A DNA stretch of 64,000 bases from NCBI RefSeq assembly GCF_008801925.2, contig NZ_CP062804.1:186001-250000 (forward strand). Reading direction: 5' to 3'. Position 1 is the stretch's first letter. Every line of letters starts with the position of its first letter. The position numbers were made by a program, and so were the translations under genes. Positions 10,396 through 28,002 of the stretch are shown piece by piece. Origin of the DNA: Cupriavidus basilensis (GTDB lineage: Bacteria > Pseudomonadota > Gammaproteobacteria > Burkholderiales > Burkholderiaceae). The notes under the pieces are model-generated. The model saw only the letters and a program-made list of their open reading frames with translations, did not search any database and was not told where the DNA came from.

Positions 10396-10783
10396 ATTGG
10401 ATGGTCCGATCGCCTACCGTGATTTGCCGGCTGATGCGCCGGCGCCCAGTGTTGACAATGCTTCCCATCGGGATCTGGGTGCTCCTGCCGCTGTTGTAGT
10501 CCTGCGCGAGCTGGCTTGGGGAGATCGCGATGCCGAGCTTCTGGAACAGCTCGGCAGCTATGTCCTCAAGCGTGCCGGCGGGCGTTGGTTTTCCGGTGAA
10601 CTTGTTGACGCGTGTCTTGGCGAACGCCCCCTTGCTAACGCGGACCAGCTTGCCCTCGTCCACAAGACGGGCTAGCACGCGGCCAACCTGTGCGGAGCTT
10701 CCCAGCTTGGCAAGCTCCGAGCGCAGGATGACAGTCGCAGCGCGCTGCGTCAGCGAGCGATTGATTCGGTCTTCCAGTTTCAT
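10376..10783 (-). CDS. AbiEi-type antitoxin / DUF6088 regulator
   Basis: This 135-aa protein has an N-terminal winged-helix segment (RSELAKLGSSAQVGRVLARLVDEGKLVRVSKGAFAK) and a C-terminal part with TGRRRISRQITVGDRTIQY, a pattern found in DUF6088/AbiEi-type antitoxins. These proteins neutralise the AbiEii toxin and repress their own promoter. It is the first gene of the pair and overlaps the toxin gene by 20 bp. A 17-bp inverted repeat 28 bp upstream is a likely autorepression site. Confidence 0.75.
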   Translation of the reverse strand: MKLEDRINRSLTQRAATVILRSELAKLGSSAQVGRVLARLVDEGKLVRVSKGAFAKTRVNKFTGKPTPAGTLEDIAAELFQKLGIAISPSQLAQDYNSGRSTQIPMGSIVNTGRRRISRQITVGDRTIQYESHHR

Positions 10784-11026: not shown

Positions 11027-12337
11027 TTACCGGTTGACCACCTTGGCCGGCATCGCCAGCACCAGGAAGCAACTCGCCACCAGGCAGCCTGCGAACAGGA
11101 TCAGGCCGGCGCTCGGGCTGTGGAAGGTGTCCTTCAGCCAGCCCAGCAGGTAGGTGGCCGCGAAGCCGCCCAGGTTGGCGACCGAGCAGGCCAGTGCGAT
11201 ACCGGCGGCGGCCGCGGTGCCGCTCAGGAAGGTGGATGGCAGGCACCAGAACACCGGGAAGGTCGCCACGATGCCTACGTTGGCCACCGTCAGCATCACC
11301 AGGGTGGCGGAGGTGGAGCCGGTGACGAAGGTGCTGCCGACCAGGCCGGCGGCGCCTGCCAGGGTGGGCAGCACAATGTGCCAGCGGCGCTCGCGCGTCT
11401 TGTCGGAGTGGGCGCCGTTGAGCAGCATGCCGATCACCGCCGCGGCGTGCGGGATGGCGGTGAGCAGGCCGATGTGCAGCGGGCTGGCCACGCCGGAGTC
11501 GCGGATGATGGTGGGCATCCAGAAGCCGATGGAGTACGTGCCCATCAGCAGGCACATGTCGATCAGGCCCAGCATCCACACGCGGCGATCGGCGAAGGCG
11601 GCCATGAGCGAGTGGTTGTTTTCCACCAGCACGTCCGTATCCAGGTTGCGCTGCAACGTGCGCTTTTCGTCAGCCTGCAGCCACTTGGCGTCCTTGATGC
11701 CGTTGGGCAGGTAGAAAAACACCATCACGCCCAGCAGCACCGAGGGGATGGCCTCCAGGAAGAACAGCCACTGCCAGCCGGCCCAGCCGTGCATGCCGGC
11801 AAAAGCGGTCATGATCCAGCCGGACAGCGGGCTGCCGATCATGCTGGCAAGCGGCAGGCCCATCATGAACAGCGCGATGATCTTGCTGCGCTTGTGGGTG
11901 GGGAACCAGTAGGTCAGGTATAGCAGCACGCCGGGCAGGAAGCCCGCCTCCGCTGCGCCCAGCAAGAAGCGCAGCACGTAGAACTGCGTTGGCGTGGTGA
12001 CGAACATGGTCGCCCCGGACAGCAAGCCCCACGTCACCATGATGCGGGCGATCCAGAGGCGCGCGCCCACCTTTTGCAGCACCAGGTTGCTGGGCACCTC
12101 GAACAGGATGTAGCCCACGAAGAACAGGCCCGCGCCCAGCCCGTAGATCGTCTCGCTGAAGTGCAGGTCGTCCAGCATCTGCAGCTTGGCCAATCCGACG
12201 TTGATGCGGTCGAGATAGGCGGCGAGATAGCAGGCGCAGAAGAACGGGATCAGGCGCCAGGTCACCTTGCGGTAGATGTCTGGCTCGGCCGCCGCGGGTA
12301 GTACGCCCGCCGCGCCGTCTGGATACTGATACGACAT
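11027..12337 (-). CDS. nicT: MFS transporter of the anion:cation symporter type, probable nicotinate importer
   Basis: This 436-aa inner-membrane permease of about 12 helices has AAYLDRINVGLAKLQM near helix 1, as in ACS-family MFS carriers for aromatic and organic acids. The ATG at 12337 (MSYQYPDG) is preceded by AAAGGAG with 5-base spacing; the GTG two codons earlier is less likely. In Pseudomonas putida the nic cluster includes the ACS-type carrier NicT. Here the gene sits at the end of the nicotinate genes, 414 bp downstream of the dehydrogenase genes on the same strand, with its own upstream palindrome. Nicotinate or 6-hydroxynicotinate uptake is therefore the best guess; the substrate cannot be read from sequence alone. 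Confidence 0.8.
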   Translation of the reverse strand: MSYQYPDGAAGVLPAAAEPDIYRKVTWRLIPFFCACYLAAYLDRINVGLAKLQMLDDLHFSETIYGLGAGLFFVGYILFEVPSNLVLQKVGARLWIARIMVTWGLLSGATMFVTTPTQFYVLRFLLGAAEAGFLPGVLLYLTYWFPTHKRSKIIALFMMGLPLASMIGSPLSGWIMTAFAGMHGWAGWQWLFFLEAIPSVLLGVMVFFYLPNGIKDAKWLQADEKRTLQRNLDTDVLVENNHSLMAAFADRRVWMLGLIDMCLLMGTYSIGFWMPTIIRDSGVASPLHIGLLTAIPHAAAVIGMLLNGAHSDKTRERRWHIVLPTLAGAAGLVGSTFVTGSTSATLVMLTVANVGIVATFPVFWCLPSTFLSGTAAAAGIALACSVANLGGFAATYLLGWLKDTFHSPSAGLILFAGCLVASCFLVLAMPAKVVNR

Positions 12338-12544
12338 GTTCACTCCTTTACTGTTTACCGTTGTCTACCGTGTGTGTGTCTTTGCCACCGCTGCGCTCGG
12401 CTGGCTTGTGCTGTTTGCTATGCAAGCAGCGGGCCAGGCCTGTTCAGTGATGGATGGCTGTCTTCTTATGGTTTCCGGCGGGCTGGCCGGGGTGTTACGC
12501 GCCGTCCTTGTGCAGCGAGGGCACTGCTTTTCTTCATCCGGCAC

Positions 12545-12751: not shown

Positions 12752-15700
12752 TTAATGAGTGGGTTGGTGAGTGGGGGCCGCGCGCAGCCGCGCGAGCGTA
12801 TCGTCCACGTTGTCCCAGGCGGGTTTGTCGGGGGCGAAGCGCTTGCGCAGGTAGTGCACCAGTTGCGTCAGCTGACGGTCGTCCAGGCTCTCGCCAAAGG
12901 CCGGCATATAGCCCAGATCGCTTGTCCCCGGCGTGGGAATGCCATCCAGCAGCACGCGGATCAGGTTGTCCGGCTTGTCGCCGTGCAGGTTGCTATTGAG
13001 CGCCAGCGACGGCTTGATGCCGAATTGCCTGATGCCCTGGTCGCTCTGGTGGCAGACCGCGCAGGCATTCTGGTACAGGCGCGCGGCGGGTCCGCCAAGC
13101 GTGCGCGCGGCGTCGGCGCTGCGTTGCTCAAGCTGCTGCGCCTGTGCGCTGGCCGCCGCCGCATCGGGCTGCGTGTCGCCGAACGATGCCACATAGTGAG
13201 CGATGGCGCGCACATCCTCCTCGGGCAGCAGCGCCAGCTCTTCGATTACCGGCGCCATCGGCCCGGCCGCCGCGCCATGATGCGGGGCGTAGCCGGTGCG
13301 CAGGTAGGAGAACAGCGATTGCTCCGTCCACGGCACCGGCGCGTGCGACAGCTTGCCCAGCGCGGGCGCCTCCCAGCCTTCGGCCTCGCCGCCGCCAAGA
13401 TAGCGCCGCCCGCCTTGCTCGGCGCCCAGCGCGTTGCGCGGCGAATGGCAGGCGCTGCAGTGGCCCAGCCCTTCGGCCAGGTAAGCGCCGCGGTTCCACT
13501 GCGCCGAGCGGGCCGGATCGGCCTCGAAGGGCTTGGGGCTGTGGAACAGCAGGTTCCATCCGGCCATCAGCGGGCGCAGGTTGTAGGGGAAGGCCAGCGC
13601 GGTCTCGGGCGCCTTGGCGCGCACCGGCTCGGCGGCCATCAGGTAGGCGTAGAGCGCCTGCAGATCGCCATCGCTGGTCTTGGCAAAGGCGGTGTAGGGG
13701 AACGCCGGGTAAAGATGCCGGCCATCGCGATGAATGCCCTGGCGCATGGCGCGCTCGAACGCCGCGTAGGACCAGTTGCCGATGCCGGTCTCGACATCGG
13801 GTGTGATGTTGGTGCTGTAAATGGTGCCGAACGGTGTGTCCAGCGCCAGCCCGCCCGCATTGCGCGCGCCGTTGGGCGCCGTATGGCAGACCGCGCAATC
13901 CCCGGCCGCCGCTACCAGCCGGCCACGCTCGATGGTAGCGGCCGAGTAGAAGCCGGCCCCCGGCGGGGCCACCGGGGCGATAGGCGCGCGCCATGGCATG
14001 GCTGTGGCGAACAAGCCGGCCGCGGCGGTGGCGCCGGCCAGCAGCCAGTTGCGCTTGCGGGCGGCACCGCGCCTGGGCGTGCCCTCGGGATTGGCCTGCG
14101 CGGCCAGCGCAAGCCGGATGCGTTCGCCGCTGAAGGGCGGCTCGCGCAGGCGCACGCCGGTGGCGTCGAAGATGGCATTGGCTACGGCCGGCGCAGCGGA
14201 CAGGGTGGCGGCGGCGCTCGTGCCGAGCGTGGCGCTGGCGGGGCGCAGCGCACCGGCAACGCGCACTTCCGGCAATTGCTCGGTGGCAAGCGCCGGCAGG
14301 CTGGCATTGTGTACCGCGGGCAGGTTGGCGGCGGGCCAGCTATCGAAGCGGCTGCCGTCGACGGTGAGTTGCTGCGCGGCGCGCGCGGCCTCCCGCTGCA
14401 AGGCCACGGCATTGGCCCCGCCTTGTTCACCCGCATCGCTGTCGTGTCCTAGCGTGACGCCGGTGACGCTGACCTCGCCGGTGGTGGCATCCACTTCGAC
14501 TTCCGCCACCCAGGCTGACCAGCTGCGCACGGGCTGGCCGCCATCGGCCGGCCCGGCTTCGATGGTGCTGGCGTACGCAAAGCCGCGTCCGCGCCGTACG
14601 TTCTGTTGCGCTTGCGGGCGTTCGCCGCGTGGCTGCCAGTTAGCCTGCGCCGCGACCCGGCGCACGAGGCCAGCGCCGCGCGCGTCGTCGAGATGGCGCA
14701 GCCGCAAGGCCACGGGATCCTGCGCGCTAGCCGCCGCCACTTCGTCCAGGTGCGACTCATGCGCGAACACGTGGGCGCGCGCTGCCTGCGCCGGCGTGCT
14801 CTCCACGCGCGGCTGTCCCGGCAGGTCGGCCTGCGTCACGCTCAGGCTGTCAAAGCGGTAGGGTGGCAGGATGGCATCGTCGCGCGTGTCGCGTCCGGCG
14901 GATGCTTCCGGCGTTATCTCGCTGACCGGCGCTGTCGTGCGGGTCAGCCACAGGGCCAGCGGCGGCGCATGCATGACCGCGGCGCTGCCGCGCGCATCCA
15001 CGGCCGTGTTGACGGCATAGGCGGCGATCTCGCCATTGGGCGTCCAGGCGCTTTCGATGTGGGTGTTGACCATGGCCTGCGTGGCGCCAAGTTCATGGGC
15101 CTCCACGCGTACGCGCACCACTCGCCCGGCCGCATGCGCCAGCAGGGCGGCATCGGCGGCGGCATGGTGGGCGTACAGGGGATCTTCGTCGTGGCCCGGA
15201 GCCTGCCAGCAGATCAAGGTAATGCGGTCTTCGCCGATGCCGAGCAGGGCGGCGAGCTCGGCCCGCAACGCGCCGGGGCGACGGCTGGGCAGCCACACGC
15301 GCAGCGCGCTGTCGCGCCAGTCCGCAAGCGCGGAGCAGCCGGCGGCTTGCAGGCCGGCGAGTGGCCATTGATAATCCTGCGCGCTGCGGCCGGCGGCATC
15401 CGCCATGGCCTGGGCGGCGTCGCCGTGTTCGGCAACGATGCGGCGGGCGAGCGGCAAGCCCGAGGCTGCCGCTGTTGGCGGGGCCTGCCAGCGGGCGTGC
15501 AGCGCGTGGGCGGCTTGCAGCGCCTGTGGCGCGGTATCGGCAGCGACGCCGAGAAAGTCGCCCCGGCGCAGTACCGTGGCAACACCGGGCACCGCGCGCG
15601 CGGCCGTCTCATCGCAATCGATCAGGCGGGCGCTAAGCAGCGTGCTTGTTTGCCATGCCAGCACGGGCGGACGGACGACGTGCCCGGCCAGCCACTCCCG

Positions 15701-15766
15701 CTCGGGCGGCGGCTGCCATGCGCCGGGGCCGGCCTGCGCCATGATGAGGTCGTCGCGCCCGCTCAT
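12752..15766 (-). CDS. nicB: Nicotinate dehydrogenase cytochrome subunit with degenerate molybdopterin-binding domain
   Basis: This 1004-aa protein has an N-terminal part (about 1-560) related to the molybdenum subunit of isoquinoline-1-oxidoreductase-type hydroxylases, a hydrophobic segment near residue 580 (WLLAGATAAAGLFATAMPW), and three c-type heme sites at Cys624 (CAVCH), Cys770 (CSACH) and Cys902 (CAVCH). This follows the plan of P. putida NicB, which passes electrons from nicotinate 6-hydroxylation to the respiratory chain. Its molybdenum part is short. It starts at the GHVVRPP segment and lacks the N-terminal module with GHVDLGTG found in the protein at 22168. Where that protein has MGAGESASLPGAPA, this one has LGTSAAATLSAAPA, so the expected catalytic Glu is missing. 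The ATG at 15766 overlaps the NicA stop as ATGA. Role: probably electron-transfer subunit only. Confidence 0.87.
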   Translation of the reverse strand: MSGRDDLIMAQAGPGAWQPPPEREWLAGHVVRPPVLAWQTSTLLSARLIDCDETAARAVPGVATVLRRGDFLGVAADTAPQALQAAHALHARWQAPPTAAASGLPLARRIVAEHGDAAQAMADAAGRSAQDYQWPLAGLQAAGCSALADWRDSALRVWLPSRRPGALRAELAALLGIGEDRITLICWQAPGHDEDPLYAHHAAADAALLAHAAGRVVRVRVEAHELGATQAMVNTHIESAWTPNGEIAAYAVNTAVDARGSAAVMHAPPLALWLTRTTAPVSEITPEASAGRDTRDDAILPPYRFDSLSVTQADLPGQPRVESTPAQAARAHVFAHESHLDEVAAASAQDPVALRLRHLDDARGAGLVRRVAAQANWQPRGERPQAQQNVRRGRGFAYASTIEAGPADGGQPVRSWSAWVAEVEVDATTGEVSVTGVTLGHDSDAGEQGGANAVALQREAARAAQQLTVDGSRFDSWPAANLPAVHNASLPALATEQLPEVRVAGALRPASATLGTSAAATLSAAPAVANAIFDATGVRLREPPFSGERIRLALAAQANPEGTPRRGAARKRNWLLAGATAAAGLFATAMPWRAPIAPVAPPGAGFYSAATIERGRLVAAAGDCAVCHTAPNGARNAGGLALDTPFGTIYSTNITPDVETGIGNWSYAAFERAMRQGIHRDGRHLYPAFPYTAFAKTSDGDLQALYAYLMAAEPVRAKAPETALAFPYNLRPLMAGWNLLFHSPKPFEADPARSAQWNRGAYLAEGLGHCSACHSPRNALGAEQGGRRYLGGGEAEGWEAPALGKLSHAPVPWTEQSLFSYLRTGYAPHHGAAAGPMAPVIEELALLPEEDVRAIAHYVASFGDTQPDAAAASAQAQQLEQRSADAARTLGGPAARLYQNACAVCHQSDQGIRQFGIKPSLALNSNLHGDKPDNLIRVLLDGIPTPGTSDLGYMPAFGESLDDRQLTQLVHYLRKRFAPDKPAWDNVDDTLARLRAAPTHQPTH

Positions 15767-16296
15767 GCCGCGCCATCCCGGCTTGCGGCCTGGCGCAGCA
15801 GCGTGCCAGCGCGTTGCACTGCGCGCAGGATCTCCACGTGCGTGCCGCAGCGGCAAAGGTTGAAGCGCAGTGCCTCGCGGATCTGCGCCTCGCTGGGGTC
15901 GGGGTTTTCCGCCAGGAGCGCCTTGGCGGTCATGATCATGCCGTTCAGGCAATAGCCGCACTGCGCGGCCTGTTCATCGATAAAGGCTTGCTGTACAGGG
16001 TCGGGCTGCCCGCCGGTGGCCAGCCCGTCGAGCGTGGTGATGGCGCGTTGCGCCACCGCTTTCACGGGAATCACGCAGGAGCGCGCCGCCACCCCGTCCA
16101 CCAGCACCGTGCATGCGCCGCACTGGCCCAGCCCGCAGCCGTACTTAGGGCCGTTGCAAGCAAGGTCATTGCGCAGGACGTAGAGCAGCGGCGTGTCGGG
16201 GTCGACCTCGGCATCGAGCTGGTACGTGGTCCGGTTGACCCGGAGGCACAGGGGGCGGGGCGTGTTCATCGGGGGCTTGGGGGCGTTTTGGAACAT
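15763..16296 (-). CDS. nicA: Nicotinate dehydrogenase 2Fe-2S subunit
   Basis: This small subunit of a molybdenum hydroxylase carries two 2Fe-2S clusters. The plant-ferredoxin-type site is CNGPKYGCGLGQCGACTVLV with the fourth Cys in RSCVIPV. The second, all-helical domain has CGYCLNGMIMTAKALL and LCRCGTHVEILRAV. At 170-180 aa it matches NicA and other xanthine-dehydrogenase-family small subunits. The ATG at 16296 has a weak GAG site; starts at 16329 (GTG) or 16269 (ATG) cannot be excluded. It overlaps the downstream cytochrome subunit by 4 bp and follows nicC by 57 bp, forming a nicC-nicA-nicB operon. It should pass electrons from the molybdenum subunit to the hemes. Confidence 0.92.
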   Translation of the reverse strand: MFQNAPKPPMNTPRPLCLRVNRTTYQLDAEVDPDTPLLYVLRNDLACNGPKYGCGLGQCGACTVLVDGVAARSCVIPVKAVAQRAITTLDGLATGGQPDPVQQAFIDEQAAQCGYCLNGMIMTAKALLAENPDPSEAQIREALRFNLCRCGTHVEILRAVQRAGTLLRQAASRDGAA

Positions 16297-16353
16297 CACT
16301 CGCTCGGGGCCGGGGCCCTGGGGGGGCACCCGGCGGTCTGGCTGGGGCGTGGC

Positions 16354-17628
<1,275 letters not shown>

Positions 17629-17747
17629 TTATGCCAAAGTGACAGTCCCGTTTTGATGCCCATAAACCGGGAAATAAAGCACCATATGAGGGGTTGATTC
17701 ATGAAGTGGGCACTGAAATCGTGCGCCGTGCGCGGTCGAACGTCTTG

Positions 17748-17776
17748 TTGTACAAATATCGTGTGTACACTACAAT
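17748..17776 (+). promoter_or_regulatory. nicE promoter with two TGTACA palindromes
   Basis: TTGTAC (-35, 17748-17753) and TACAAT (-10, 17771-17776) are 17 bp apart. TTGTACAA (17748-17755) and GTGTACAC (17763-17770) have centres exactly 15 bp apart and cover the -35 box and spacer. Together with the site at nicC they form a three-site divergent control region. The MarR-type regulator at 24506 is a plausible binder, by analogy with NicR of P. putida, but the match is untested. Confidence 0.55.
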
Positions 17777-17874
17777 CGTTCGCAGGACACGGAGACCGCT
17801 GAAGGCTCCGGTCCGGCCGTGCAGGGCGCTTCCCCGCTAAGACGGGCGCCAGGGCGGGTGGACAGAACACACAG

Positions 17875-18642
17875 ATGACGGAGTCGACAGTGCAGAAAAT
17901 TTTCCGTATCGGCCAGATCGTGCCGAGCTCGAACACCACCATGGAAACCGAGATCCCGGCGATGCTGACGTTGCGCCAGCAGGTGCGCCCCGAACGCTTC
18001 ACCTTCCATTCCAGCCGCATGCGCATGAAGAAGGTGGTCAAGGAAGAACTGGCCGCCATGGACGCCGAGTCCGACCGCTGCGCGCTGGAACTGAGCGACG
18101 CCCGCGTCGACGTGCTGGGCTATGCCTGCCTGGTGGCCATCATGGCGATGGGCCACGGCTACCATCGCGTCTCTGAAAAGCGCCTGCAGGCTCATACCGC
18201 CGCCAACGGCGCTGACGCGCCCGTGATCACCAGCGCCGGCGCGCTGATCGACGCGCTCAAGGTCATCGGCGCCAAGCGCATCGCCGTGGTTGCGCCTTAC
18301 ATGAAGCCGCTGACCGAGCTGGTGGTGGACTACATCCGCAACGAAGGCTACGAAGTGGTGGACTGGCGCGCGCTGGAAATCCCCGACAACCTCGAAGTGG
18401 GCCGCCACGACCCCGCCAGGCTGCCCGGCATCGTCGCGCAGATGAACACCAAGGATGTGGACGCCATCGTGCTGTCCGCCTGCGTGCAGATGCCGTCGCT
18501 GCCGGCGGTGGCCAAGGTGGAAGCCATGACCGGCAAGCCCGTGATCACGGCCGCTATTGCCACCACTTACGCCATCCTCAAGCAGCTCGACCTGGAGCCG
18601 GTCGTGCCCGGCGCGGGTGCGCTGCTGTCGGGTGCCTATTGA
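17875..18642 (+). CDS. nicE: Maleate cis-trans isomerase
   Basis: This enzyme of the Asp/Glu racemase superfamily converts maleate to fumarate, the last step of nicotinate degradation. At 255 aa it has the family length. The two catalytic cysteines are Cys85 (GYACLVA) and Cys203 (SACVQMPS). The N-terminal segment FRIGQIVPSSNTTMETEIP is characteristic of maleate isomerases. The ATG at 17875 was taken; a GTG five codons later is possible. It leads the plus-strand operon nicE-nicD-nicX-nicF, divergent from nicC, with 28 bp to nicD. Confidence 0.93.
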   Translation: MTESTVQKIFRIGQIVPSSNTTMETEIPAMLTLRQQVRPERFTFHSSRMRMKKVVKEELAAMDAESDRCALELSDARVDVLGYACLVAIMAMGHGYHRVSEKRLQAHTAANGADAPVITSAGALIDALKVIGAKRIAVVAPYMKPLTELVVDYIRNEGYEVVDWRALEIPDNLEVGRHDPARLPGIVAQMNTKDVDAIVLSACVQMPSLPAVAKVEAMTGKPVITAAIATTYAILKQLDLEPVVPGAGALLSGAY

Positions 18643-18670
18643 CTACGTCTTCGGTAAAGGGAGCCCAGCA

Positions 18671-19513
18671 ATGAGCGAGTTTCTCCACGGCGGCAACGTG
18701 TTCGCCAATGGCATCCGCCAGCATTACCTGCGCTACGGCGGCAGCACCGGCGCGCGCGCGCAGCGCGACGCCGTGGTGATCGTGCCCGGCATCACCAGCC
18801 CGGCGGTCACCTGGGGCTTTGTCGGCGAACAGTTCGGCAAGCACTTCGATACCTACATCCTGGATGTGCGCGGGCGCGGCTTGTCCGAGGCGGGCGATGC
18901 GCTGGACTACAGCCTGGATGCGCAAGCCGCGGACGTGACGGCGTTCGCGCAGGCACTGGGCCTGGCGCGCTACGCCATCGTCGGCCATTCCATGGGCGCG
19001 CGCATCGGCATCCGCGCCGCGCGCGGCAATCCCGCCGGGCTGACGCGGCTGGTGATGGTGGACCCGCCCGTGTCGGGCCCGGGACGGCGCGCCTATCCCT
19101 CCCAGCTGCCGTGGTACGTGGACTCCATCCGCCTGGCGCGCCAGGGCATCGATGCCGAAGGCATGCGCCGCTTCTGCCCGACCTGGACAGATGAGCAGTT
19201 GCGCCTGCGCGCCGAGTGGCTGCACACCTGCGACGAGCGCGCCATCGTGACGAGCTTCGAGGACTTCCATCGCGACGATGTGCATGCGGACATGCCCTTG
19301 GTGCAGGTACCCACGCTGCTGATGGTGGCAGGCCGCGGCGATGTGATCCGCGCGGAAGACATCGAAGAGATTCGCGGCCTGCTGCCTGCCGTGCAGGTTG
19401 CCCGCGTGCCGGATGCGGGCCACATGATCCCGTGGGACGACGAGGCCGGCTTCTACCGCGCCTTCGGCGATTTCCTCGGCGCGCCGCTGCTGCAGGACCA
19501 GGCTGCCGCCTGA
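18671..19513 (+). CDS. nicD: N-formylmaleamate deformylase
   Basis: This alpha/beta-hydrolase removes formate from N-formylmaleamate to give maleamate. The nucleophile is Ser107 in GHSMG, the acid is probably in the PTLLMVAGRGDVI segment, and the His is in VPDAGHMIPWD. The start at 18671 (MSEFLHGGNVF) follows AAAGGGAG; the reading frame is open further upstream into nicE, but that part has no family match. The mature length of 280 aa is slightly longer than P. putida NicD. It lies between nicE and nicX, both pathway partners, which makes the family assignment specific. Confidence 0.9.
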   Translation: MSEFLHGGNVFANGIRQHYLRYGGSTGARAQRDAVVIVPGITSPAVTWGFVGEQFGKHFDTYILDVRGRGLSEAGDALDYSLDAQAADVTAFAQALGLARYAIVGHSMGARIGIRAARGNPAGLTRLVMVDPPVSGPGRRAYPSQLPWYVDSIRLARQGIDAEGMRRFCPTWTDEQLRLRAEWLHTCDERAIVTSFEDFHRDDVHADMPLVQVPTLLMVAGRGDVIRAEDIEEIRGLLPAVQVARVPDAGHMIPWDDEAGFYRAFGDFLGAPLLQDQAAA

Positions 19514-19542
19514 GCTGCCCGCTTCACCAGAAAGGAGAACAC

Positions 19543-20634
19543 ATGCCAGTAAGCGATCACGACCTGACCCAGGCATGGCGCCAGGTGCTCACCCTGTCAA
19601 AACTGGAGCCGGGCCAGACGGTCACGGTGCTGACCGGCGCCGCCACGCATCCGCAAACGCTGCGCACGGCGCAGATGGCGGCCACCGCGATGGGCGCCAT
19701 CGTCAACCGGCTGGACCTGCCGCCCGTCAACGCAGACAAGGCGCTCAGCCGCGACGCGCTGGCTTATCTCGGCACTACGCCGCTGACCGGCAACCCGGCC
19801 GCCATCGCCGCGCTCAAGGCCAGCGACCTGGTGCTGGACCTGATGACGCTGCTGTTCTCGCCCGAACAGCACGAGATCCTCTCCGGCGGCACCAAGATCC
19901 TGCTGGCGGTGGAGCCGCCCGAGGTGCTGGTGCGGCTGGTGCCCACCGAAGGCGACCGCACCCGCGTGAAAGCCGCCACGGCGCGGCTGGCGCGCGCGCG
20001 GGAGATGCACATCACGTCCGATGCCGGCACCGACCTGCGCTGCGCGCTGGGCGAGTTTCCCGCCATCAGCGAGTATGGCTTTGTCGATGAGCCGGGCCGC
20101 TGGGACCATTGGCCAAGCGGCTTCGTGCTGACCTGGCCGGACGAGGGTGGCACCAACGGGCGCATCGTGCTCGATCGCGGCGACATCCTGCTGCCGATGA
20201 AATCCTATGTGCAGGAGCCGATCGACATCACGGTGGAGAAAGGCTACGTGACCCGCATCGAAGGCGGCCTGGATGCCGAGCTGCTGAGCGACTACATGGC
20301 CTCGTTCAACGACCCCGAGGCCTACGCCATGTCGCATATCGGCTGGGGCCTGCAGCCGCGCGCGCGCTGGTCCACGCTCGCCATGTATGACCGCGAGGCC
20401 ACCATCGGCATGGATGCGCGCGCGTTCGAAGGCAACTTCCTGTGCTCCTTCGGCCCGAACAACGAAGCCGGCGGCAGCCGCACCACGGCCTGCCATATCG
20501 ATATCCCCGTGCGCCATTGCACGGTGCGGCTGGACGCAGAGGCGGTGGTTGAAAAAGGAAAGGTGCTGGATCACGAGTACCAGCAAGCGCAGCAAAGCCA
20601 GCAACGAGATGCCAAGGGAGCCATCCATGCATGA
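19543..20634 (+). CDS. nicX: 2,5-dihydroxypyridine 5,6-dioxygenase
   Basis: This non-heme Fe(II) extradiol-like dioxygenase opens the ring of 2,5-dihydroxypyridine to N-formylmaleamate. With the ATG at 19543 (AAAGGAG ribosome site), the iron ligands fall at His265 (SHIGWG), His318 and Asp320 (CHIDIP). These are the positions known for P. putida NicX, which confirms both the start and the family. The length is 363 aa. It overlaps nicF by 8 bp, indicating translational coupling. The C-terminal Gln-rich tail (EYQQAQQSQQRDAKG) is longer than needed and looks disordered. Confidence 0.95.
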   Translation: MPVSDHDLTQAWRQVLTLSKLEPGQTVTVLTGAATHPQTLRTAQMAATAMGAIVNRLDLPPVNADKALSRDALAYLGTTPLTGNPAAIAALKASDLVLDLMTLLFSPEQHEILSGGTKILLAVEPPEVLVRLVPTEGDRTRVKAATARLARAREMHITSDAGTDLRCALGEFPAISEYGFVDEPGRWDHWPSGFVLTWPDEGGTNGRIVLDRGDILLPMKSYVQEPIDITVEKGYVTRIEGGLDAELLSDYMASFNDPEAYAMSHIGWGLQPRARWSTLAMYDREATIGMDARAFEGNFLCSFGPNNEAGGSRTTACHIDIPVRHCTVRLDAEAVVEKGKVLDHEYQQAQQSQQRDAKGAIHA

Positions 20635-21274
20635 TGAAGTGAAGACCTACCAGCGCCAGGGCTTCGGCGCCGCGCTGGAACCGAAGGCACCTTACGGCCT
20701 GCTGATCATCGACTTCGTCAACGGCTTCGCCGACCCGGCTGTCTTCGGCGGCGGCAATATCCCCCAGGCCATCGCCAACACCGTGCCCCTGCTGGCCACG
20801 GCGCGCGAGCAGGGCTGGCCGGTGGCGCACAGCCGCATCGTGTTTGCCGACGACGACAGCGACCACAACATCTTCACGCAGAAGGTGCCCGGCCTGCTGG
20901 CCCTGAAGGAAGACAGCCACAACAGCGCCATCGTCGGGCAACTGGCGCCGCGCGCGGGTGAACTGGTGGTGCGCAAGACCGTGCCATCGGCCTTTTTCGG
21001 CACCTCGTTGGCCGCATGGCTGAACCAGCGCGGCGTGCAGACGCTGCTGGTGGCGGGCTGCGTGACCAGCGGCTGCGTGCGCGCCAGCGTGGTCGATGCC
21101 ATGTCGTACGGCTTCCGCCCGCTGGTGCTGTCGGATTGCGTGGGCGATCGCGCTATCGGGCCGCACGATGCCAACCTGTTCGACATGGCGCAGAAGAACG
21201 CCACGGTGATGCCGCGCGACGAAGCGCTGGCGATGCTGGCGCGGGCTACGGCCACGGCTACGGCTACGGCTTAA
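20627..21274 (+). CDS. nicF: Maleamate amidohydrolase
   Basis: This cysteine hydrolase of the isochorismatase superfamily converts maleamate to maleate plus ammonia. The catalytic triad is recognisable as Asp in LLIIDFVNGF, Lys in VVRKTVPSAFFGT and Cys145 in LLVAGCVTSGCVR. The start at 20627 (MHDEVKTYQRQ) has AAGGGAG upstream; the length of 215 aa matches the family. It overlaps nicX by 8 bp and ends the plus-strand nic operon. The last codons are a GCTACG-type repeat coding ATATATATA before the stop, probably slippage-prone. A hairpin 7 bp downstream probably ends transcription. Confidence 0.93.
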   Translation: MHDEVKTYQRQGFGAALEPKAPYGLLIIDFVNGFADPAVFGGGNIPQAIANTVPLLATAREQGWPVAHSRIVFADDDSDHNIFTQKVPGLLALKEDSHNSAIVGQLAPRAGELVVRKTVPSAFFGTSLAAWLNQRGVQTLLVAGCVTSGCVRASVVDAMSYGFRPLVLSDCVGDRAIGPHDANLFDMAQKNATVMPRDEALAMLARATATATATA

Positions 21275-21281
21275 GGGAAAG

Positions 21282-21313
21282 GCATCCGGCGATGCGCGAT
21301 GACCGCCGGATGC
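21282..21313. terminator. Hairpin between convergent nicF and TetR genes
   Basis: GCATCCGGCG (21282-21291) and CGCCGGATGC (21304-21313) form a perfect 10-bp stem with a 12-nt loop in the 44-bp gap between two convergent genes. It is followed by CTTTCCCTT on the minus strand and by no T run on the plus strand. It probably acts as a shared, partly Rho-dependent terminator. Confidence 0.6.
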
Positions 21314-21318
21314 GAGGC

Positions 21319-22071
21319 TCAGGCACGCTTGGCGCGTGCCGGCTTCTTGCGGGCGGCGGGCGCCGCCGCCTCGGCTTCGGCCGGGGCCTGCCCAGCCGGG
21401 GCGATGCCGGTGCCCGGCACGCAAACCGTGCTCAGCACCGTACGCTGGATCACATCGCGCCAGTGCTCCAGCGCCGGCTTGCTCATCATGGGCTCGCCCA
21501 GGAAAGCGCTGAGCGTATGATGATTCGAGTTGTAGAAGTAGCCCAGCGACGCGATCACCAGGTAGATATCGCGGGCGAGCACATCGGGTTGGAACAGCCC
21601 GGCAGCCTTGCCGCGCACCAGGATGCCGTCCAGCACAGACAGGGCGTAGCTGGAGATCTCCCGGAGCCGGCTCGACTTCTTGGCATGCTTGCCCTGGCTC
21701 ATGTTCTCGCTGGACAGGATGGCGACGAACTCGGGATGATCGAGGTAGTAGCCCCAGACGAAGTCGATCAGCTGGGTCAGCGCGCGGACCGGATCCTCGG
21801 GGTCGAGCTTGAGCGCCTGCTCGGCCTCGTTGAGCTGGATGTAGATGGTTTCGAGCACTTCGACGAACAGCTTTTCCTTGCTGCCGAAGTAGTAATAGAT
21901 CATCCGGTCGTAGGTCTTGGCCAGCGAGGAGATCTTCTCCACGCGCCCGCCTTCGTAGCCGCGCAAGGCGAAGACCTTGATGGCGGCCTTGAGGATCTTG
22001 GCTCGGGTGTCCTGAGCTTGCCGGGCCCGGGTTCCGGCTGCCGCGCTTTTCTTAGCGGTCGGGGTGCTCAT
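21319..22071 (-). CDS. nicS: TetR-family regulator of the nicotinate dehydrogenase genes (NicS-like)
   Basis: This 250-aa repressor-type protein has an N-terminal TetR helix-turn-helix (AKILKAAIKVFALRGYEGGRVEKISSLAKTYDRMIYYYFGSKEKLF) and a ligand-binding helical domain, with an Ala/Pro/Lys-rich tail. The frame stays open for another 700 codons upstream only because it is antisense to the molybdenum subunit gene; the genuine start is the ATG at 22071 (MSTPTAKKS). In P. putida the TetR protein NicS controls the nicotinate dehydrogenase genes. Here the gene is divergent from the molybdenum subunit across 96 bp. The symbol rests on this context and is tentative. Confidence 0.85.
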   Translation of the reverse strand: MSTPTAKKSAAAGTRARQAQDTRAKILKAAIKVFALRGYEGGRVEKISSLAKTYDRMIYYYFGSKEKLFVEVLETIYIQLNEAEQALKLDPEDPVRALTQLIDFVWGYYLDHPEFVAILSSENMSQGKHAKKSSRLREISSYALSVLDGILVRGKAAGLFQPDVLARDIYLVIASLGYFYNSNHHTLSAFLGEPMMSKPALEHWRDVIQRTVLSTVCVPGTGIAPAGQAPAEAEAAAPAARKKPARAKRA

Positions 22072-22078
22072 ATGTTTG

Positions 22079-22112
22079 ATACGTATTGCTTGTTCGAGCC
22101 TGGCAGTATAAC
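22079..22112. promoter_or_regulatory. Divergent control region with ATACGTAT palindrome
   Basis: The 96-bp gap between the TetR gene and the molybdenum subunit holds an 8-bp perfect palindrome ATACGTAT (22079-22086), just upstream of the TetR start. A possible plus-strand promoter is TTGCTT (22086-22091) and TATAAC (22107-22112), with a short 15-bp spacer. Binding by the TetR protein is inferred from position. Confidence 0.4.
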
Positions 22113-22167
22113 GGCCAGGGCGGGCGGCGCCGGAATCCGGCAGTCCGCCAGCGTGCCTACCTGAGAC

Positions 22168-24498
22168 ATGGAACGAATGGAAACGACCCCCGGCTCCGGA
22201 CCCCGGTCCGCCTCTCTTCCCGCATCGGCGCCGATGTCCCCGGGCGCGCAGCGCGACGCCCTGCTGCAGGCGCGCGGCGTGCTGCTGGTGACGCGCGCGC
22301 CGCAAGCGGCGCCGCGGCCCGCGCCCGGCCAGCCCGGCGCGGCCTCCGACTACATCGCCGCGCAGCCCGACATGTTCGTGGCGGTGCGCGACACCGGCGA
22401 GATCCTGGCCTTCAACGGGCACGTTGACCTGGGCACCGGCATCCGCACCGCGCTGGCGCAGATCGTGGCCGAGGAGCTGGAGGTGCCGGCGGCGCGCGTG
22501 GCGATGACGCTGGGCCATACCGAAGCAACGCCCAACCAGGGCCCCACCATTGCCAGCGCCACCATCCAGATCTCGGCGCTGCCGCTGCGCCGCGCGGCAG
22601 CGCAGGCCATGGCCTGGCTGCGCGAGCGCGCGGCGCAGCGCCTTGGCGTGGCGCCCGAAGCGCTGATCGCCGAAGATGGCCGCCTGCGCTTGCGCGGCGC
22701 AGGCAATGAGAACGCCGAAGGCCTGGCCTACGGCGACCTGCTGGCCGGCGAGCATATCGAGCTGCCGCTGGCCGACGCCATTGCCACCAAGCCGGTCAGC
22801 GAATACCGCGTGGTCGGGCGCCCCGCGCCCCGCGTGGACATTCCCGCCAAGGCCACGGCACAGCTCACCTTCGTGCACGATGTGCGCGTGCCTGGCATGC
22901 TGCACGGCCGCGTGGTGCGCCCACCCTACGCCGGGCGCGATAGCGGTGGCTTTGTCGGCACCAGCCTGCGCGGCGTCGACCGCGCGTCGATCCGCGATGT
23001 GCGCGGTGTCGTCGACGTGGTGGTGCAGGGCGATTTCATCGGCGTGGTGGCGCAGCGCGAGGAGCAGGCCATGCAGGCGGCGCGCCGCCTGCGCGTGGAC
23101 TGGAAGCCGGCGCCGCCGTTGCCCCCGCTCAGCGAGCCGGAAGACACCGAGGCCGCGCTGCGTGCCAATCCCGCGACGCGCCGCACGCTGGTGGACGAGG
23201 GCGACGCCCAAGGCGCCTTCGACTGCGCCGAGCGGATACTGTCGCGCGGCTACGCGTGGCCCTACCAGATGCACGGCTCCATCGGCCCGTCCTGCGCCGT
23301 GGCGGACTACCGCGAGGATGGCCTCACGGTCTGGTCCGGCACGCAAAACCCGCATGTGCTGCGCATCGACCTGGCGCGCCTGACCGGCCTGGATGAAGGC
23401 TGCATCGAGATCGTGCGGATGGAAGCCGCCGGCTGCTATGGCCGTAACTGCGCCGACGACGTTTGCGCCGATGCGGTGCTGCTGTCGCGCGCGGTGAGGC
23501 GCCCGGTGCGGGTGCAGCTCAGCCGCGAGCAGGAACATCTCTGGGAGCCCAAGGGCGCGGCGCAGCTGATGGATGTGCGCGGCGCCGTTGGCCCCGATGG
23601 CGAGTTGCTGGCCTACGATTTCGTCAGCCGCTATCCATCCAACGACGCGCCCACGCTGGCGCTGCTGCTGACCGGCGTGGTCGACAACGCGCCGCGCATG
23701 CTGCAGATGGGCGACCGCACCGCGGTACCGCCTTACCAGTACGCCGCGACGCGCATCGGTTGCGACGACACGCCAGCCATCGTGCGCGCGTCCTGGCTGC
23801 GCGGCGTGTCCGCGCTGCCAAACGTGTTCGCGCACGAGTCCTTCATCGACGAGCTCGCGCATGAGGCCGGCGCCGATCCGCTGGCGTACCGCCTGCGCCA
23901 CCTGCCTGATGCGCGCGCCACCGACCTGCTGCGCGCGCTGGCGGCGCATGCCGGCTGGCGCGAAGGCGCGCGCGGCACGCGTGGCCAGCCGGACGCGGAT
24001 GGGCTGCTGCGTGGGCGCGGCGTGGCCTATGCCCGCTATATCCACAGCAAATTCCCGGGCTTTGGCGCCGCCTGGGCCGCCTGGGTGGTGGACCTGACGG
24101 TCGCGCCCGAAACCGGCCAGATCGTGGTGGAGCGGCTGGTGGTGGCGCAAGACACCGGCATGATGGTCAACCCCGACGGCGTGCGCCACCAGGTGCAGGG
24201 CAATGTGGTGCAGGCGCTTGGCCGCGTACTCAAGGAACAGGTGCGCTTTGACGCCAGCGGCGTGGCCAGCCGCGAATGGGGCAGCTATCCGCTGCTGACC
24301 TTTCCCGAGCTGCCGCCCATCGAAGTGTTGCTGATGCCGCGCCAGGAGGAAGCGCCGATGGGCGCGGGAGAATCCGCGTCGCTGCCGGGCGCGCCGGCTA
24401 TTGCCAACGCGCTGTTCGATGCCACGGGGGTGCGGTTGCGGCGCGCGCCTTTCACGCCGGAGGCGGTGCTCGCGGCGCTGGCCGGCCAGCCCGCCTGA
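22168..24498 (+). CDS. Molybdopterin-binding catalytic subunit of nicotinate dehydrogenase (aldehyde oxidase/IorB type)
   Basis: This 776-aa protein is the large molybdenum-cytosine-dinucleotide subunit of a xanthine-dehydrogenase-family hydroxylase, most like isoquinoline-1-oxidoreductase beta subunits. Recognisable parts are the N-terminal FNGHVDLGTGIRTALAQIVAEEL, NQGPTIASATIQ, the central YQMHGSIGPSCAVADY, EAAGCYGRNCADDVCADAV and the C-terminal MGAGESASLPGAPAIANALFDATG with the expected catalytic Glu735. It has no heme motifs and no 2Fe-2S domain, so it needs partners, which are present as NicA and the cytochrome subunit at 12752. Together these make a three-protein nicotinate dehydrogenase rather than the two-protein form of P. 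putida. ATG 22168 and 22177 are both possible starts. Confidence 0.87.
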   Translation: MERMETTPGSGPRSASLPASAPMSPGAQRDALLQARGVLLVTRAPQAAPRPAPGQPGAASDYIAAQPDMFVAVRDTGEILAFNGHVDLGTGIRTALAQIVAEELEVPAARVAMTLGHTEATPNQGPTIASATIQISALPLRRAAAQAMAWLRERAAQRLGVAPEALIAEDGRLRLRGAGNENAEGLAYGDLLAGEHIELPLADAIATKPVSEYRVVGRPAPRVDIPAKATAQLTFVHDVRVPGMLHGRVVRPPYAGRDSGGFVGTSLRGVDRASIRDVRGVVDVVVQGDFIGVVAQREEQAMQAARRLRVDWKPAPPLPPLSEPEDTEAALRANPATRRTLVDEGDAQGAFDCAERILSRGYAWPYQMHGSIGPSCAVADYREDGLTVWSGTQNPHVLRIDLARLTGLDEGCIEIVRMEAAGCYGRNCADDVCADAVLLSRAVRRPVRVQLSREQEHLWEPKGAAQLMDVRGAVGPDGELLAYDFVSRYPSNDAPTLALLLTGVVDNAPRMLQMGDRTAVPPYQYAATRIGCDDTPAIVRASWLRGVSALPNVFAHESFIDELAHEAGADPLAYRLRHLPDARATDLLRALAAHAGWREGARGTRGQPDADGLLRGRGVAYARYIHSKFPGFGAAWAAWVVDLTVAPETGQIVVERLVVAQDTGMMVNPDGVRHQVQGNVVQALGRVLKEQVRFDASGVASREWGSYPLLTFPELPPIEVLLMPRQEEAPMGAGESASLPGAPAIANALFDATGVRLRRAPFTPEAVLAALAGQPA

Positions 24499-24505
24499 GG
24501 CGGGT

Positions 24506-25018
24506 TTACTCTGGCTCGCCGTCTGGTGCGTTGCCGCGCTCGTCGCGCTCGTCGAACTCGCTCATCTTGCGCAACAGGTAGGTGATCGCCACCCGCTCGG
24601 CGGGATTGAGGTCGCCGAACGTCTGCTCGGAGATCTTGTGCGCGAACGGCACGGTCTCCTCGATCAGCGCATGGCCGGCCGGGGTCACCGTGACCACGAC
24701 CTTGCGGCGGTCATTGGTGTCGTGCGAGACGGCCACCAGCTCGCGCGCCTTGAGGCGCTCGATGATGCCGCGCACGGTGGCCTGGTCGATGGCGGTGGCT
24801 CGCACGATTTCGCTGAGCGAGCACGAGCCGCGCTCGTTGACCGCGCACATCACCACGAACTGCGCCGCGGTCAGCTGCGAGTCGGCAATGGTCTGCTGGA
24901 AGATCGCCACATGGCGCTGGTAGGCGCGCCGCAGGAGGTGCCCGACCTGCTCGGTGAAATCGTAGTCGGCGGCGGCGGGTTTTTGCGCGGCGGTCTTGCG
25001 CGCGGAGGAGTTGGACAC
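24506..25018 (-). CDS. nicR: MarR-family regulator (NicR-like)
   Basis: This 170-aa winged-helix repressor has the MarR core (LTAAQFVVMCAVNERGSCSLSEIVRATAIDQATVRGIIERLKARELVAVSHDTNDRRKVVVTVT). The C-terminal EFDERDERGN is acidic. A GTG at 25018 (MSNSSARKTAAQ) gives a family-like length; a GTG at 25102 would add 28 residues. It is convergent with the molybdenum subunit with only 7 bp between stops. In P. putida, the MarR protein NicR represses the 6-hydroxynicotinate genes and is relieved by 6-hydroxynicotinate. The position at the end of this nic cluster supports the same role. The TGTACA sites at the nicC/nicE promoter are candidate targets. Confidence 0.8.
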   Translation of the reverse strand: MSNSSARKTAAQKPAAADYDFTEQVGHLLRRAYQRHVAIFQQTIADSQLTAAQFVVMCAVNERGSCSLSEIVRATAIDQATVRGIIERLKARELVAVSHDTNDRRKVVVTVTPAGHALIEETVPFAHKISEQTFGDLNPAERVAITYLLRKMSEFDERDERGNAPDGEPE

Positions 25019-25113
25019 GATGGGCGGTCTGCAGGCATGAGATAAACGTGCCTCAGAGTATACCGAGTGGGGCCGCGCGCGGCGCGTTTTTTGCGCGTGC
25101 ACGGCCCCGCGCC

Positions 25114-25149
25114 CGCAATCCGCTCAATCCGCTCAATCCGCTCAATCCG
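25114..25149. repeat. Tandem 9-bp repeat (CTCAATCCG)
   Basis: Three exact copies of CTCAATCCG (25123-25131, 25132-25140, 25141-25149) follow a fourth imperfect one, CGCAATCCG (25114-25122). The repeat contains the dmeF stop codon (25142-25144) and otherwise lies between dmeF and nicR. It is likely a slippage-generated minisatellite with no evident function. Confidence 0.85.
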
Positions 25150-26113
25150 CGCACCGGTGGATTTCCACGGTGATATGCACGAGCTCTTCATGCACGGCAA
25201 GGGCGCTCCTGACGCGCGCTGCCGTCAGCGCGGGGTCGTGCGTCACCAGGCTGACAAGGCAGGAGAATTTCTCCTTACCCACTCGCCAGACATGAAGGTC
25301 GGCAACACGGGTACCCTCGTCGCCGGTATCGAAAGCCTGCAACACTTCGCGTACCTCGTCCACGACCGGATGGTCCATTTCGCGATCGAGCAGAACGACG
25401 CCGGTTTGCTTCAGCAGGCCGAAGGCCCACGCGCCGACCAGCCCGGCGCCAACGATGCCCATGACCGGGTCGAGCCAGCGCCACCCGAGCAGCCAGCCTC
25501 CGGCCAGTGCCAGAATGGCAAGCACCGATGTCGCGGCATCGGCCAGCACATGGACGTATGCCGAGCGCAAATTCAGGTCATGCTGGTGATGGCCGCCATG
25601 GCCATGCGCGTGTCCATGTTGGTGCCCATGCTCATGCCCAGGTTCGTGGCCATGGTCATGCGCATCGCCCAGTATCAGCGCGCATCCTATATTGACAAGC
25701 AGTCCGATGACCGTGACTGCCATGGCCTCCTTGTAGTGAATTGCCTGCGGACTGAAGATCCGTTCAACGGACCCGAAGACCATCAAGGCTGCGATGCCGA
25801 GAAGAAAGATCGCACTGGCGAATCCCGCCAGGATTTCAATCTTCCAGGTGCCGAAGGCGAATCGATGGTCATGGGCATAGCGCCGCGCCGCAACATAGGC
25901 AAAGGCGCTCAACCCGATGGCAAGCGCGTGGGAACTCATATGCCAGCCGTCTGCCAGCAGCGCCATCGAGTTGAACCAGAGGCCGGCGGCGATTTCCACA
26001 ACCATCATCGCCGCGGTGATCAGCATCACGAGGCGCGTGCCTCGCTCGGCGGCCTTGTTGCCTGAGTCGAATACGTGGGTGTGGGTCCACGGGGTGAGGT
26101 CATGTGTATGCAT
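25142..26113 (-). CDS. dmeF: Cation diffusion facilitator, cobalt/nickel efflux (DmeF type)
   Basis: This 323-aa inner-membrane CDF antiporter exports divalent cations. It has the N-terminal HTHVFDSGNK signature of DmeF, six predicted helices, the metal site motif ALLADGWHMSSHALAI (helix 2) and YVHVLADAATSVLAIL (helix 5). A long His-rich loop (about residues 150-178, HGHEPGHEHGHQHGHAHGHGG) lies between helices 4 and 5. In DmeF the helix-2 site is HxxxD-like, giving cobalt and nickel preference over zinc. It is second gene of an operon with an RcnR-type sensor 87 bp upstream. The stop lies inside a tandem repeat. Confidence 0.9.
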   Translation of the reverse strand: MHTHDLTPWTHTHVFDSGNKAAERGTRLVMLITAAMMVVEIAAGLWFNSMALLADGWHMSSHALAIGLSAFAYVAARRYAHDHRFAFGTWKIEILAGFASAIFLLGIAALMVFGSVERIFSPQAIHYKEAMAVTVIGLLVNIGCALILGDAHDHGHEPGHEHGHQHGHAHGHGGHHQHDLNLRSAYVHVLADAATSVLAILALAGGWLLGWRWLDPVMGIVGAGLVGAWAFGLLKQTGVVLLDREMDHPVVDEVREVLQAFDTGDEGTRVADLHVWRVGKEKFSCLVSLVTHDPALTAARVRSALAVHEELVHITVEIHRCAD

Positions 26114-26200
26114 GTTCGATCTGCTGCAGTTTCGTGGCGATTCGAGCGTGAGCGGGTAGTAAACCGTGAAGCGGGTAATAGACTGAGTGAGTCAGGCTAC

Positions 26201-26479
26201 TCATTTGAAGTAGCTGTGCACCACCTCGATGAGCTGCTCCCTGGCGTCGCCTTCGGACTCGCCATGGGCTGGCTCGGCTTCGACAAGGTGCGTGCGGATG
26301 TGGTCTTCCAGTACCACGGCCAGCAGGCCGTTCATGGCCCCACGGCAACTCGTGATCTGCTGCAGCACCCCCACGCAGCCTTGCTCCTCCTCAAGTGCGC
26401 GTTCGATGGCATCAATCTGCCCCCGGATGCGGCGCACCCGGTTCAGCAACTTCTGTTTCTCGCGGATGGTGTGGCTCAC
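26201..26479 (-). CDS. dmeR: RcnR/CsoR-family nickel/cobalt-sensing repressor
   Basis: This 92-aa all-helical DUF156 repressor starts at the GTG at 26479 with a GAGG ribosome site. With that start it has His3, Cys35, His60 and His64, exactly the metal-ligand pattern of RcnR, so it should sense nickel or cobalt rather than copper or formaldehyde. The sequence reads SHTIREKQKLLNRVRRIRG, then GCVGVLQQITSCRGAMNG and DHIRTHL. It precedes dmeF on the same strand, giving a dmeRF operon like those described in rhizobia. The operator candidate is the G tract at 26497-26511. Confidence 0.9.
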   Translation of the reverse strand: MSHTIREKQKLLNRVRRIRGQIDAIERALEEEQGCVGVLQQITSCRGAMNGLLAVVLEDHIRTHLVEAEPAHGESEGDAREQLIEVVHSYFK

Positions 26480-26496
26480 GGCTTCGCCTCGAATAT

Positions 26497-26511
26497 AGTA
26501 TGGGGGAGTAT
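26497..26511. promoter_or_regulatory. G-tract operator candidate of dmeRF
   Basis: AGTAT-GGGGG-AGTAT sits 17-32 bp upstream of the dmeR start. CsoR/RcnR-family repressors bind G/C tracts flanked by AT-rich ends, so this is a likely autoregulatory site. The flanks are direct rather than inverted repeats. Confidence 0.55.
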
Positions 26512-26787
26512 ATATTCCCAGCCGGGAAAGGGACGATGACCTTGCAAGCCGCCGGGTTTTGCCCGCTGCGTGGTACGTGGCAAGTCTTCCTGTTCGTCCC
26601 ATCATGAGAGGCGTTGACCACCTGCGTCTCGCGCGTGGACAATGGGCCAGTCGTGCCTCCTGCCAGAACCGAGAGAACTGCCAAATGCCTTCTGCCGTTG
26701 CTGCAGCGGTTGCCGCCGCCTGCAGGCTTTCACTGCCGCGGTGCCGCTTGCGCTGTGCGCCAACTGCGACATTCGCGGTGACCGGTC

Positions 26788-27921: not shown

Positions 27922-28002
27922 TATATTTTTCCGTTGCCAGTGACGCCAGTGGTGATTAGTATAGTGATCGTTCAATAAATTGCTGCGCCGCAGTCGCTCG
28001 CC

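Follow-up and report, generated by a model that had tools for sequence, protein, structure and literature searches.

A catalytically dead molybdenum domain on the cytochrome subunit of a tripartite nicotinate dehydrogenase from Cupriavidus basilensis

Nicotinate dehydrogenase is a vitamin-B3-degrading enzyme. Here we describe its genes in a stretch of 64,000 nucleotides (nt) of the soil bacterium Cupriavidus basilensis, referred to as the window (assembly GCF_008801925.2, contig NZ_CP062804.1, positions 186,001 to 250,000; host genome 8.94 Mb). In the available excerpts of PMC10269826, NicA/NicB of Pseudomonas putida is described as two-component, and a three-protein NicA/NicB1/NicB2 enzyme has been published from Burkholderia gladioli and Bordetella, with Brickman and Armstrong 2018 cited there. 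NicB of the P. putida type, which shares its pathway and domain types with the window, carries a live molybdenum domain fused to a cytochrome, and the nic genes of Pseudomonas sp. BYT-5 (locus L075) likewise include a fused NicB. The window protein is not of this type: no single chain combines a live molybdenum domain with the cytochrome, and the two parts are split, with a dead copy of the domain left behind.

The B. gladioli/Bordetella enzyme has the same three parts as the window, and in pairwise comparison with B. bronchiseptica the window cytochrome is 50% identical over 97% (P0078) and the catalytic subunit 70% over 96% (P0199). With a 2Fe-2S subunit, a separate molybdenum subunit and a multi-heme cytochrome subunit inside one nic cluster, beside nicC-, nicD-, nicE-, nicF-, nicX- and nicT-like genes, the window enzyme is by gene content a member of this tripartite kind and would hydroxylate nicotinate at C6. 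The three-protein nicotinate dehydrogenase put forward in the original prediction, which was made from the letters of the window, was borne out, but the architecture itself had been published. The excerpts of PMC10269826 call the enzyme tripartite and say nothing of a dead domain; nor is a degenerate molybdenum domain on the cytochrome mentioned in the literature searched, which was covered in excerpts and excludes Brickman and Armstrong 2018 and the 2018 J Bacteriol BpsR paper. In the excerpts of a Delftia genome paper (PMC4572682) the naming is reversed: nicB2 adjoins nicA, and nicB1 is a gene called aldehyde dehydrogenase.

A further relative is the membrane-bound aldehyde dehydrogenase of Gluconobacter oxydans (PDB 8gy3), with separate molybdenum and cytochrome chains; the window proteins match chains C and A. 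Its 444-amino-acid (aa) cytochrome chain lacks a molybdenum-type domain, unlike the window cytochrome. We take the 8gy3 enzyme to have a separate Fe-S chain as well.

The cytochrome subunit and its degenerate domain

The cytochrome subunit (NicB1-type; 12752..15766, minus strand) is a protein of 1004 aa with a dead molybdenum domain, a signal-anchor helix and three c-type heme sites (CAVCH, CSACH, CAVCH). Its reading frame is open from GTG 15961 (1069 aa), and the start at ATG 15766, which yields 1004 aa, overlaps by 4 nt the stop codon of nicA, the 2Fe-2S subunit gene (15763..16329, minus). The catalytic molybdenum subunit (NicB2-type; 22168..24498, plus) has 776 aa. Both genes lie at the ends of the cluster where the original prediction had placed them. 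Within C. basilensis, the cytochrome has a counterpart of 97% identity, and the catalytic protein is 95% identical to that of strain OR16.

The aldehyde-oxidase-type domain that the two proteins were said to have in common is readily detected. They align by BLASTP at 33.5% identity over 558 aa (E 1.5e-55), and a catalytic-domain profile matches the cytochrome at residues 26-559 (E 2.9e-82); Pfam MoCoBD_1 is barely above its cut-off there (30.0 vs 27 bits). In the predicted model, residues 2-559 of the cytochrome keep the fold of the molybdenum-domain family, as does the second protein modelled.

Sequence features of the 776-aa protein are those of a live enzyme. It keeps FNGHVDLGTG and APMGAGES, with a glutamate at position 735 that is invariant in 12/12 aligned proteins, and the cofactor motifs and catalytic Glu of the xanthine-oxidase family are present. 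There is no twin arginine ahead of the GHVDLGTG motif at its N-terminus. In alignment with catalytic proteins, the cytochrome lacks the N-terminal module of the molybdenum domain, and LGTSAA stands opposite MGAGES, so that Ala518 occupies the catalytic-Glu column, as had been read from the letters alone. Other aligned pairs are GCYGRNCADD and GHEDPLYAHH, RASWLRGVSALPN and RVESTPAQAARAH, and DTGTMVNPDGVRHQ and DSDAGEQGGANAVA.

In this enzyme family the cofactor-side motifs contact the cofactor. All seven that were scored are lost in the window cytochrome, and its alignment shows neither the catalytic Glu nor the cofactor contacts conserved. The same holds on average across 55 remnants (45 loci, the window and 9 database proteins), in which mean motif identity is 0.04-0.20 and the best single protein reaches 0.22-0.50, compared with means of 0.85-1.00 in 34 fused NicB proteins; a Glu occupies the catalytic column in 34/34 fused NicB and in 6/55 remnants. 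Among 89 cytochrome homologues (P0005-P0093, from the best 120 of 218 matches), 88 have at least three CxxCH sites, and both GHVDLGTG and GxGES are missing from 82 of those 88. By these alignments, the 1004-aa protein carries a catalytically dead molybdenum domain.

The dead domain is followed by a hydrophobic, signal-anchor-like helix (aa 574-592; 13991..14047, minus), which has a weak Kyte-Doolittle mean of 1.22, is preceded by positive residues and is placed at 570-589 in the predicted model. The tri-heme cytochrome c part follows (aa ~607-1000; 12767..13948, minus). Using hydrophobicity and charge rules alone, we found a 19-residue stretch with a Kyte-Doolittle mean of at least 1.2 between the molybdenum-type domain and the hemes in 88/89 fused or split proteins (mean over the 89 proteins, 1.65), and the net charge before the helix exceeds that after it in 87/89. 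Since c-type hemes are attached in the periplasm, the N-terminal part, with the dead domain, should be cytoplasmic and the hemes should lie across the membrane. This is in partial conflict with the original prediction, in which the domain is a scaffold joining NicA and the catalytic subunit to the hemes: a piece of it is retained, but the helix separates a cytoplasmic domain from periplasmic hemes.

Split and fused loci and their probable order of descent

To the best 80 matches in a scan of species genomes with a catalytic-domain alignment we added eight plasmid loci. Of the resulting 88 loci, 34 are fused (molybdenum domain and cytochrome in one frame), 45 are split and 9 are unclassed (L077, L084, L085, L092, L104, L117, L123, L135, L151). 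The dead domain is present in 46/46 split cytochromes, counting the window, with profile matches at E <=7.1e-29; three of the 45 have incomplete or broken frames (L125, L137, L155). The split form occurs in Cupriavidus, Herbaspirillum, Bordetella, Schauerella, Achromobacter, Delftia, Acidovorax, Paracidovorax, Verticiella, Alcaligenes, Pusillimonas, Eoetvoesiella, Caballeronia, Pandoraea, some Paraburkholderia and Burkholderia, and one Cobetia. This last locus (L137, Cobetia crustatorum), the one split member of the set from outside Burkholderiales, has its cytochrome spread over two frames and departs from the others in gene order. One unclassed locus, L077, is a cytochrome/molybdenum fragment close to IS6100 and IS1411 copies on pBYT1-1, a plasmid of Pseudomonas sp. 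BYT-1; no gene is annotated beneath it.

In all 45 split loci, nicA is directly upstream of the cytochrome gene on the same strand (462 nt off frame in L137), and fused nicB occupies the same place beside nicA. At least one of nicC, D, E, F and X is found in the fetched flank of 43/45 split and 7/34 fused loci. Because the other 27 fused loci (L102-L145 and others) have none of these genes there, nicotinate is not established as their substrate; they may act on another substrate, or their pathway may be located elsewhere. A further fused locus, that of Neorhizobium, has an annotated 6-hydroxynicotinate reductase gene nearby. In a draw of 150 genomes from the family of the window, 112 matched at 1e-60, many of them solely via the cytochrome part of other proteins. 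Of 38 genomes searched again using the catalytic protein, 37 gave matches at 1e-60, including three (G002, G089, G107) with only ~40% identity.

The closest sister of the fused and split forms is a class of separate molybdenum subunits with a twin-arginine translocation (Tat) motif, found in Pseudomonas aeruginosa (PA1601-like), Serratia and Paraburkholderia bonniea. PA1601 appears in the Tat-substrate table of PMC6085387, as seen in excerpts of that paper, and one member of the class, P0246, starts with the 32 residues printed there for PA1601. The window's molybdenum subunit lacks a Tat motif, unlike this exported class, and its cytochrome has a molybdenum-type domain, unlike PA1601-like and 8gy3-like cytochromes. 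In the P. bonniea set (L163, G085; 100% identical protein), a Tat-type molybdenum subunit, a 2Fe-2S protein and a 435-aa cytochrome are consecutive. We considered this set as a tripartite nicotinate enzyme without a dead domain and rejected it: the Tat motif is present and no nic pathway gene was found within the surrounding 20 kb, so that it was treated as part of the sister class and left out of the split loci. A second locus in the host genome (G000:C1:1469311-1473388; L002, L010) comprises a separate molybdenum subunit with a Tat-like start and an 8gy3-type cytochrome.

A Tat motif is present in the first 40 residues of 120/120 sister-class proteins among the matches listed (the query's own entry included), 0/20 fused NicB and, with a loose pattern, 16/121 separate catalytic proteins of the window's class. 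Three of these 16 starts were inspected (P0231, P0237, P0241), and in each a short hydrophobic stretch is interrupted by Arg; P0237 is the start of a fused protein. SRRQLY in the fused protein of L105 falls narrowly outside the pattern.

Besides the window, our first cytochrome and catalytic-domain trees held 20/34 fused and 33/45 split loci; the careful trees omit L137 together with the longest rows of the outgroup, and the remnant and three-class trees have fewer rows. The careful catalytic-domain tree unites the catalytic subunits from split loci in one clade (96/99, 33 rows) nested in fused NicB, and a clade of the 20 fused rows was rejected by the approximately unbiased (AU) test (p 0.022). 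The 12 remnants placed in a tree likewise form one clade within NicB (92/96), and in a quick cytochrome tree 34 remnant-bearing rows grouped together (Shimodaira-Hasegawa-like approximate likelihood ratio test, 84). Branching in the three-class tree proceeds from the outgroup to the Tat class (95/77) and then to fused plus split forms (100/99), with the split forms (98/93) sister to fused proteins of Paraburkholderia and Burkholderia (100/99). Trees and remnant together argue strongly that the dead domain derives from a once-fused NicB, and the nesting supports the earlier suggestion that catalysis moved to a separate subunit. Since the Tat class is sister, the fused forms lack the motif and the split forms nest among the fused, the simplest reading is that an enzyme with separate, exported subunits became fused and lost its Tat motif, and later separated again.

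Selection on the remnant and its possible role

Conservation along the remnant is patchy. We compared omega in four segments with omega in the matching part of the catalytic subunits of the same genomes, hereafter the live values. All 44 available pairs are >80% identical in the cytochrome part and share branches; 14 were hand-picked as disjoint by kinship, rather than by a tree check of each pair, and pooled. Omega was obtained by simple counting on GC-rich genes, so differences between segments are more reliable than the absolute figures. The eroding part (aa ~26-329; 14780..15691, minus) has an omega of 0.331 vs 0.102 live. Core 1 (aa ~330-437; 14456..14779, minus), with the pattern FAHES..DE.A..DPV.LRL.HL ... 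SAWV..VEV...TG, has 0.210 vs 0.128. The relaxed middle (aa ~438-518; 14213..14455, minus), which contains the lost DTGxxVNPDGVRHQ and GAGES motifs and Ala518, has 0.320 vs 0.072; its model confidence is low at 472-495 and 506-515. Core 2 (aa 519-552; 14111..14212, minus), with the sequence ATLSAAPAVANAIFDATGVRLREPPF..., has 0.069 vs 0.084. For comparison, the pooled omega of the cytochrome part is 0.101 (14 pairs).

Most of the remnant is therefore 3-4 times less constrained than the matching part of the live subunit (omega ~0.32-0.33 vs 0.07-0.10), and the 34-residue core 2, which ends ~20 residues ahead of the signal-anchor-like helix, is constrained as in the live enzyme. The full set of 44 pairs likewise shows the eroding and middle parts relaxed, core 1 mildly so and core 2 not. 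Among the 14, omega is higher in the remnant than in the live subunit in 13/14 pairs for the eroding part, 13/14 for core 1, 14/14 for the middle and 4/14 for core 2. In live proteins the middle ranks among the two most constrained of the segments compared, so the region as such does not account for its relaxation in remnants. Judged by these contrasts, the C-terminal, membrane-proximal piece, core 2 and to a lesser degree core 1, is still under selection. The dead domain is not simply discarded in this known tripartite enzyme; by the same measures, it is conserved and selectively trimmed.

We propose that a fused NicB with molybdenum domain, membrane helix and three heme sites either was duplicated or gained a second copy as complement, after which the two were reduced in complementary ways. 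Downstream of nicX and nicF, one copy would have kept catalysis and lost the cytochrome; in the copy beside nicA, helix and hemes would have been kept while the molybdenum domain died. The retained piece would hold a cytoplasmic pair of NicA and catalytic subunit on the membrane anchor of the cytochrome, docking replacing the former covalent link, and electrons would pass from molybdenum to the NicA clusters. We give this explanation as a whole an even chance of being right, and docking, our best guess for the role of the remnant, is about equally balanced. Of the earlier idea that the old domain was kept as a docking scaffold, the part that stands is the piece held by selection before the membrane; most of the domain is relaxed.

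Several observations weigh against this proposal. The limits of the segments were drawn after conservation had been seen, which introduces some circularity into the omega values per segment. In one comparison of live enzymes, core 2 was more constrained than any other part, and folding rather than docking may account for it; core 1, for its part, is mildly relaxed (13/14 pairs). The careful cytochrome tree does not recover the split rows as a single clade (3 changes), and forcing them together costs 8.6 log-likelihood units, a cost at which one clade is not rejected (p-AU 0.25). Remnant branches are long, and the catalytic copy could have arisen by duplication in place or come from a relative.

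A tentative extension of the docking proposal, which we consider possible but rather doubtful, is that the enzyme switched membrane side at fusion, when the Tat motif was lost and the signal peptide of the cytochrome became an internal anchor; after the second split, the dead half would have become a dedicated cytoplasmic docking domain. Catalysis and the 2Fe-2S clusters would then be cytoplasmic and the c hemes periplasmic, and electrons would have to cross or enter the membrane.

The remnant might instead be a functionless relic, dragged along by its in-frame fusion to an essential cytochrome and shrinking lineage by lineage. Loss is indeed graded: the profile is recognisable from 241-772 in Cupriavidus, Herbaspirillum and some Bordetella down to 547-772 in Pandoraea and some Paraburkholderia and Burkholderia, where 660-730 is often unrecognisable as well, and in 8/46 cytochromes (L141, L142, L146, L147, L148, L154, L160, L162) the recognisable part of the profile starts no earlier than position 532, leaving the C-terminal third alone. 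Omega is 0.32-0.35 across the larger part. We nonetheless consider this account unlikely: core 2 shows no relaxation (0.069 vs 0.084), the profile positions that make it up are matched in 46/46 split cytochromes, and the most eroded set of remnants has invariant positions of its own.

Rather than docking partners, the retained piece could serve biogenesis, by inserting or folding the membrane-anchored cytochrome or by recruiting a molybdenum-cofactor chaperone. Its place shortly before the helix and the presence of an XdhC-family gene in two fused nic clusters fit such a role, which we rate as somewhat less probable still, as the separate cytochromes of P. bonniea and 8gy3 manage without such a domain. 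Substitution of the remnant for one protomer of a molybdenum-molybdenum dimer, the live subunit being paired with a dead copy, is improbable, several genera having kept the system though much of the domain is gone. Least credible by far is that the remnant still binds cofactor or substrate and contributes to catalysis: the six remnants with a Glu at the catalytic column lack the GxGES motif, and all seven cofactor-side motifs are on average lost.

The nic cluster, its surroundings and the NicAB group

On the minus strand, the cytochrome gene and nicA are flanked by a nicT-like major facilitator superfamily transporter (11027..12343) and a nicC-like flavin adenine dinucleotide monooxygenase (16354..17613). 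The plus strand carries a nicE-like maleate isomerase of the Asp/Glu racemase type (17875..18642), a nicD-like alpha/beta hydrolase (18671..19513), a nicX-like 2,5-dihydroxypyridine dioxygenase (19543..20634) and a nicF-like isochorismatase-fold amidase (20627..21274; alternative start at 20609 possible). The nicX-like gene has no match in Pfam or NCBIfam and was identified by a 53% match to the annotated gene of Pseudomonas sp. BYT-5. The plus-strand frame 21016-22164 was rejected as nicX; a TetR gene lies beneath it on the opposite strand. In the nicC-nicE gap, two promoter-like sites (0.3 expected) were detected, along with two short palindromes.

Beyond the nicF-like gene stand this TetR-family regulator (21319..22071, minus; PF17938, E 3e-38, and PF00440), the catalytic subunit and a MarR-family regulator (24506..25102, minus), which is NicR/BpsR-like by place and 58% identical to its MarR counterpart among the nic genes of BYT-5. 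The TetR gene reported beside the catalytic gene is real, divergent from it and 96 bp away. A TetR homologue (E 1e-20) is present in 12/45 split loci, adjoining the catalytic gene divergently in 12/12.

Farther out, beside nicT, an AbiEii-type nucleotidyltransferase gene (PF08843, E 8e-32) and an upstream AbiEi/DUF6088-like partner at 9286-10783 resemble a type IV toxin-antitoxin pair. At 25142-26872, adjoining the cluster, a metal-sensitive repressor (PF02583) accompanies a DmeF-type cobalt/nickel efflux transporter that scores above the NCBIfam cut-off. A cytochrome P450 lies at 29029-30585 (PF00067, E 4e-72), with a TetR domain in the adjoining frame 27244-28941.

What is new here is the census of split and fused loci with a remnant in all 45 split loci, the probable history of separation, fusion and renewed separation, and the uneven decay of the remnant. 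One enzyme family thereby offers an ordered series, separate, fused and separate again, with living examples of every step. The remnant singles out those residues of a catalytic domain that stay important after its activity is lost, with ~34 to 140 residues at issue. For the whole NicAB group it raises the question of the electron path from a cytoplasmic Fe-S protein to periplasmic hemes; if the enzyme did switch sides, this would be a route across or into the membrane for which we found no description in the family.
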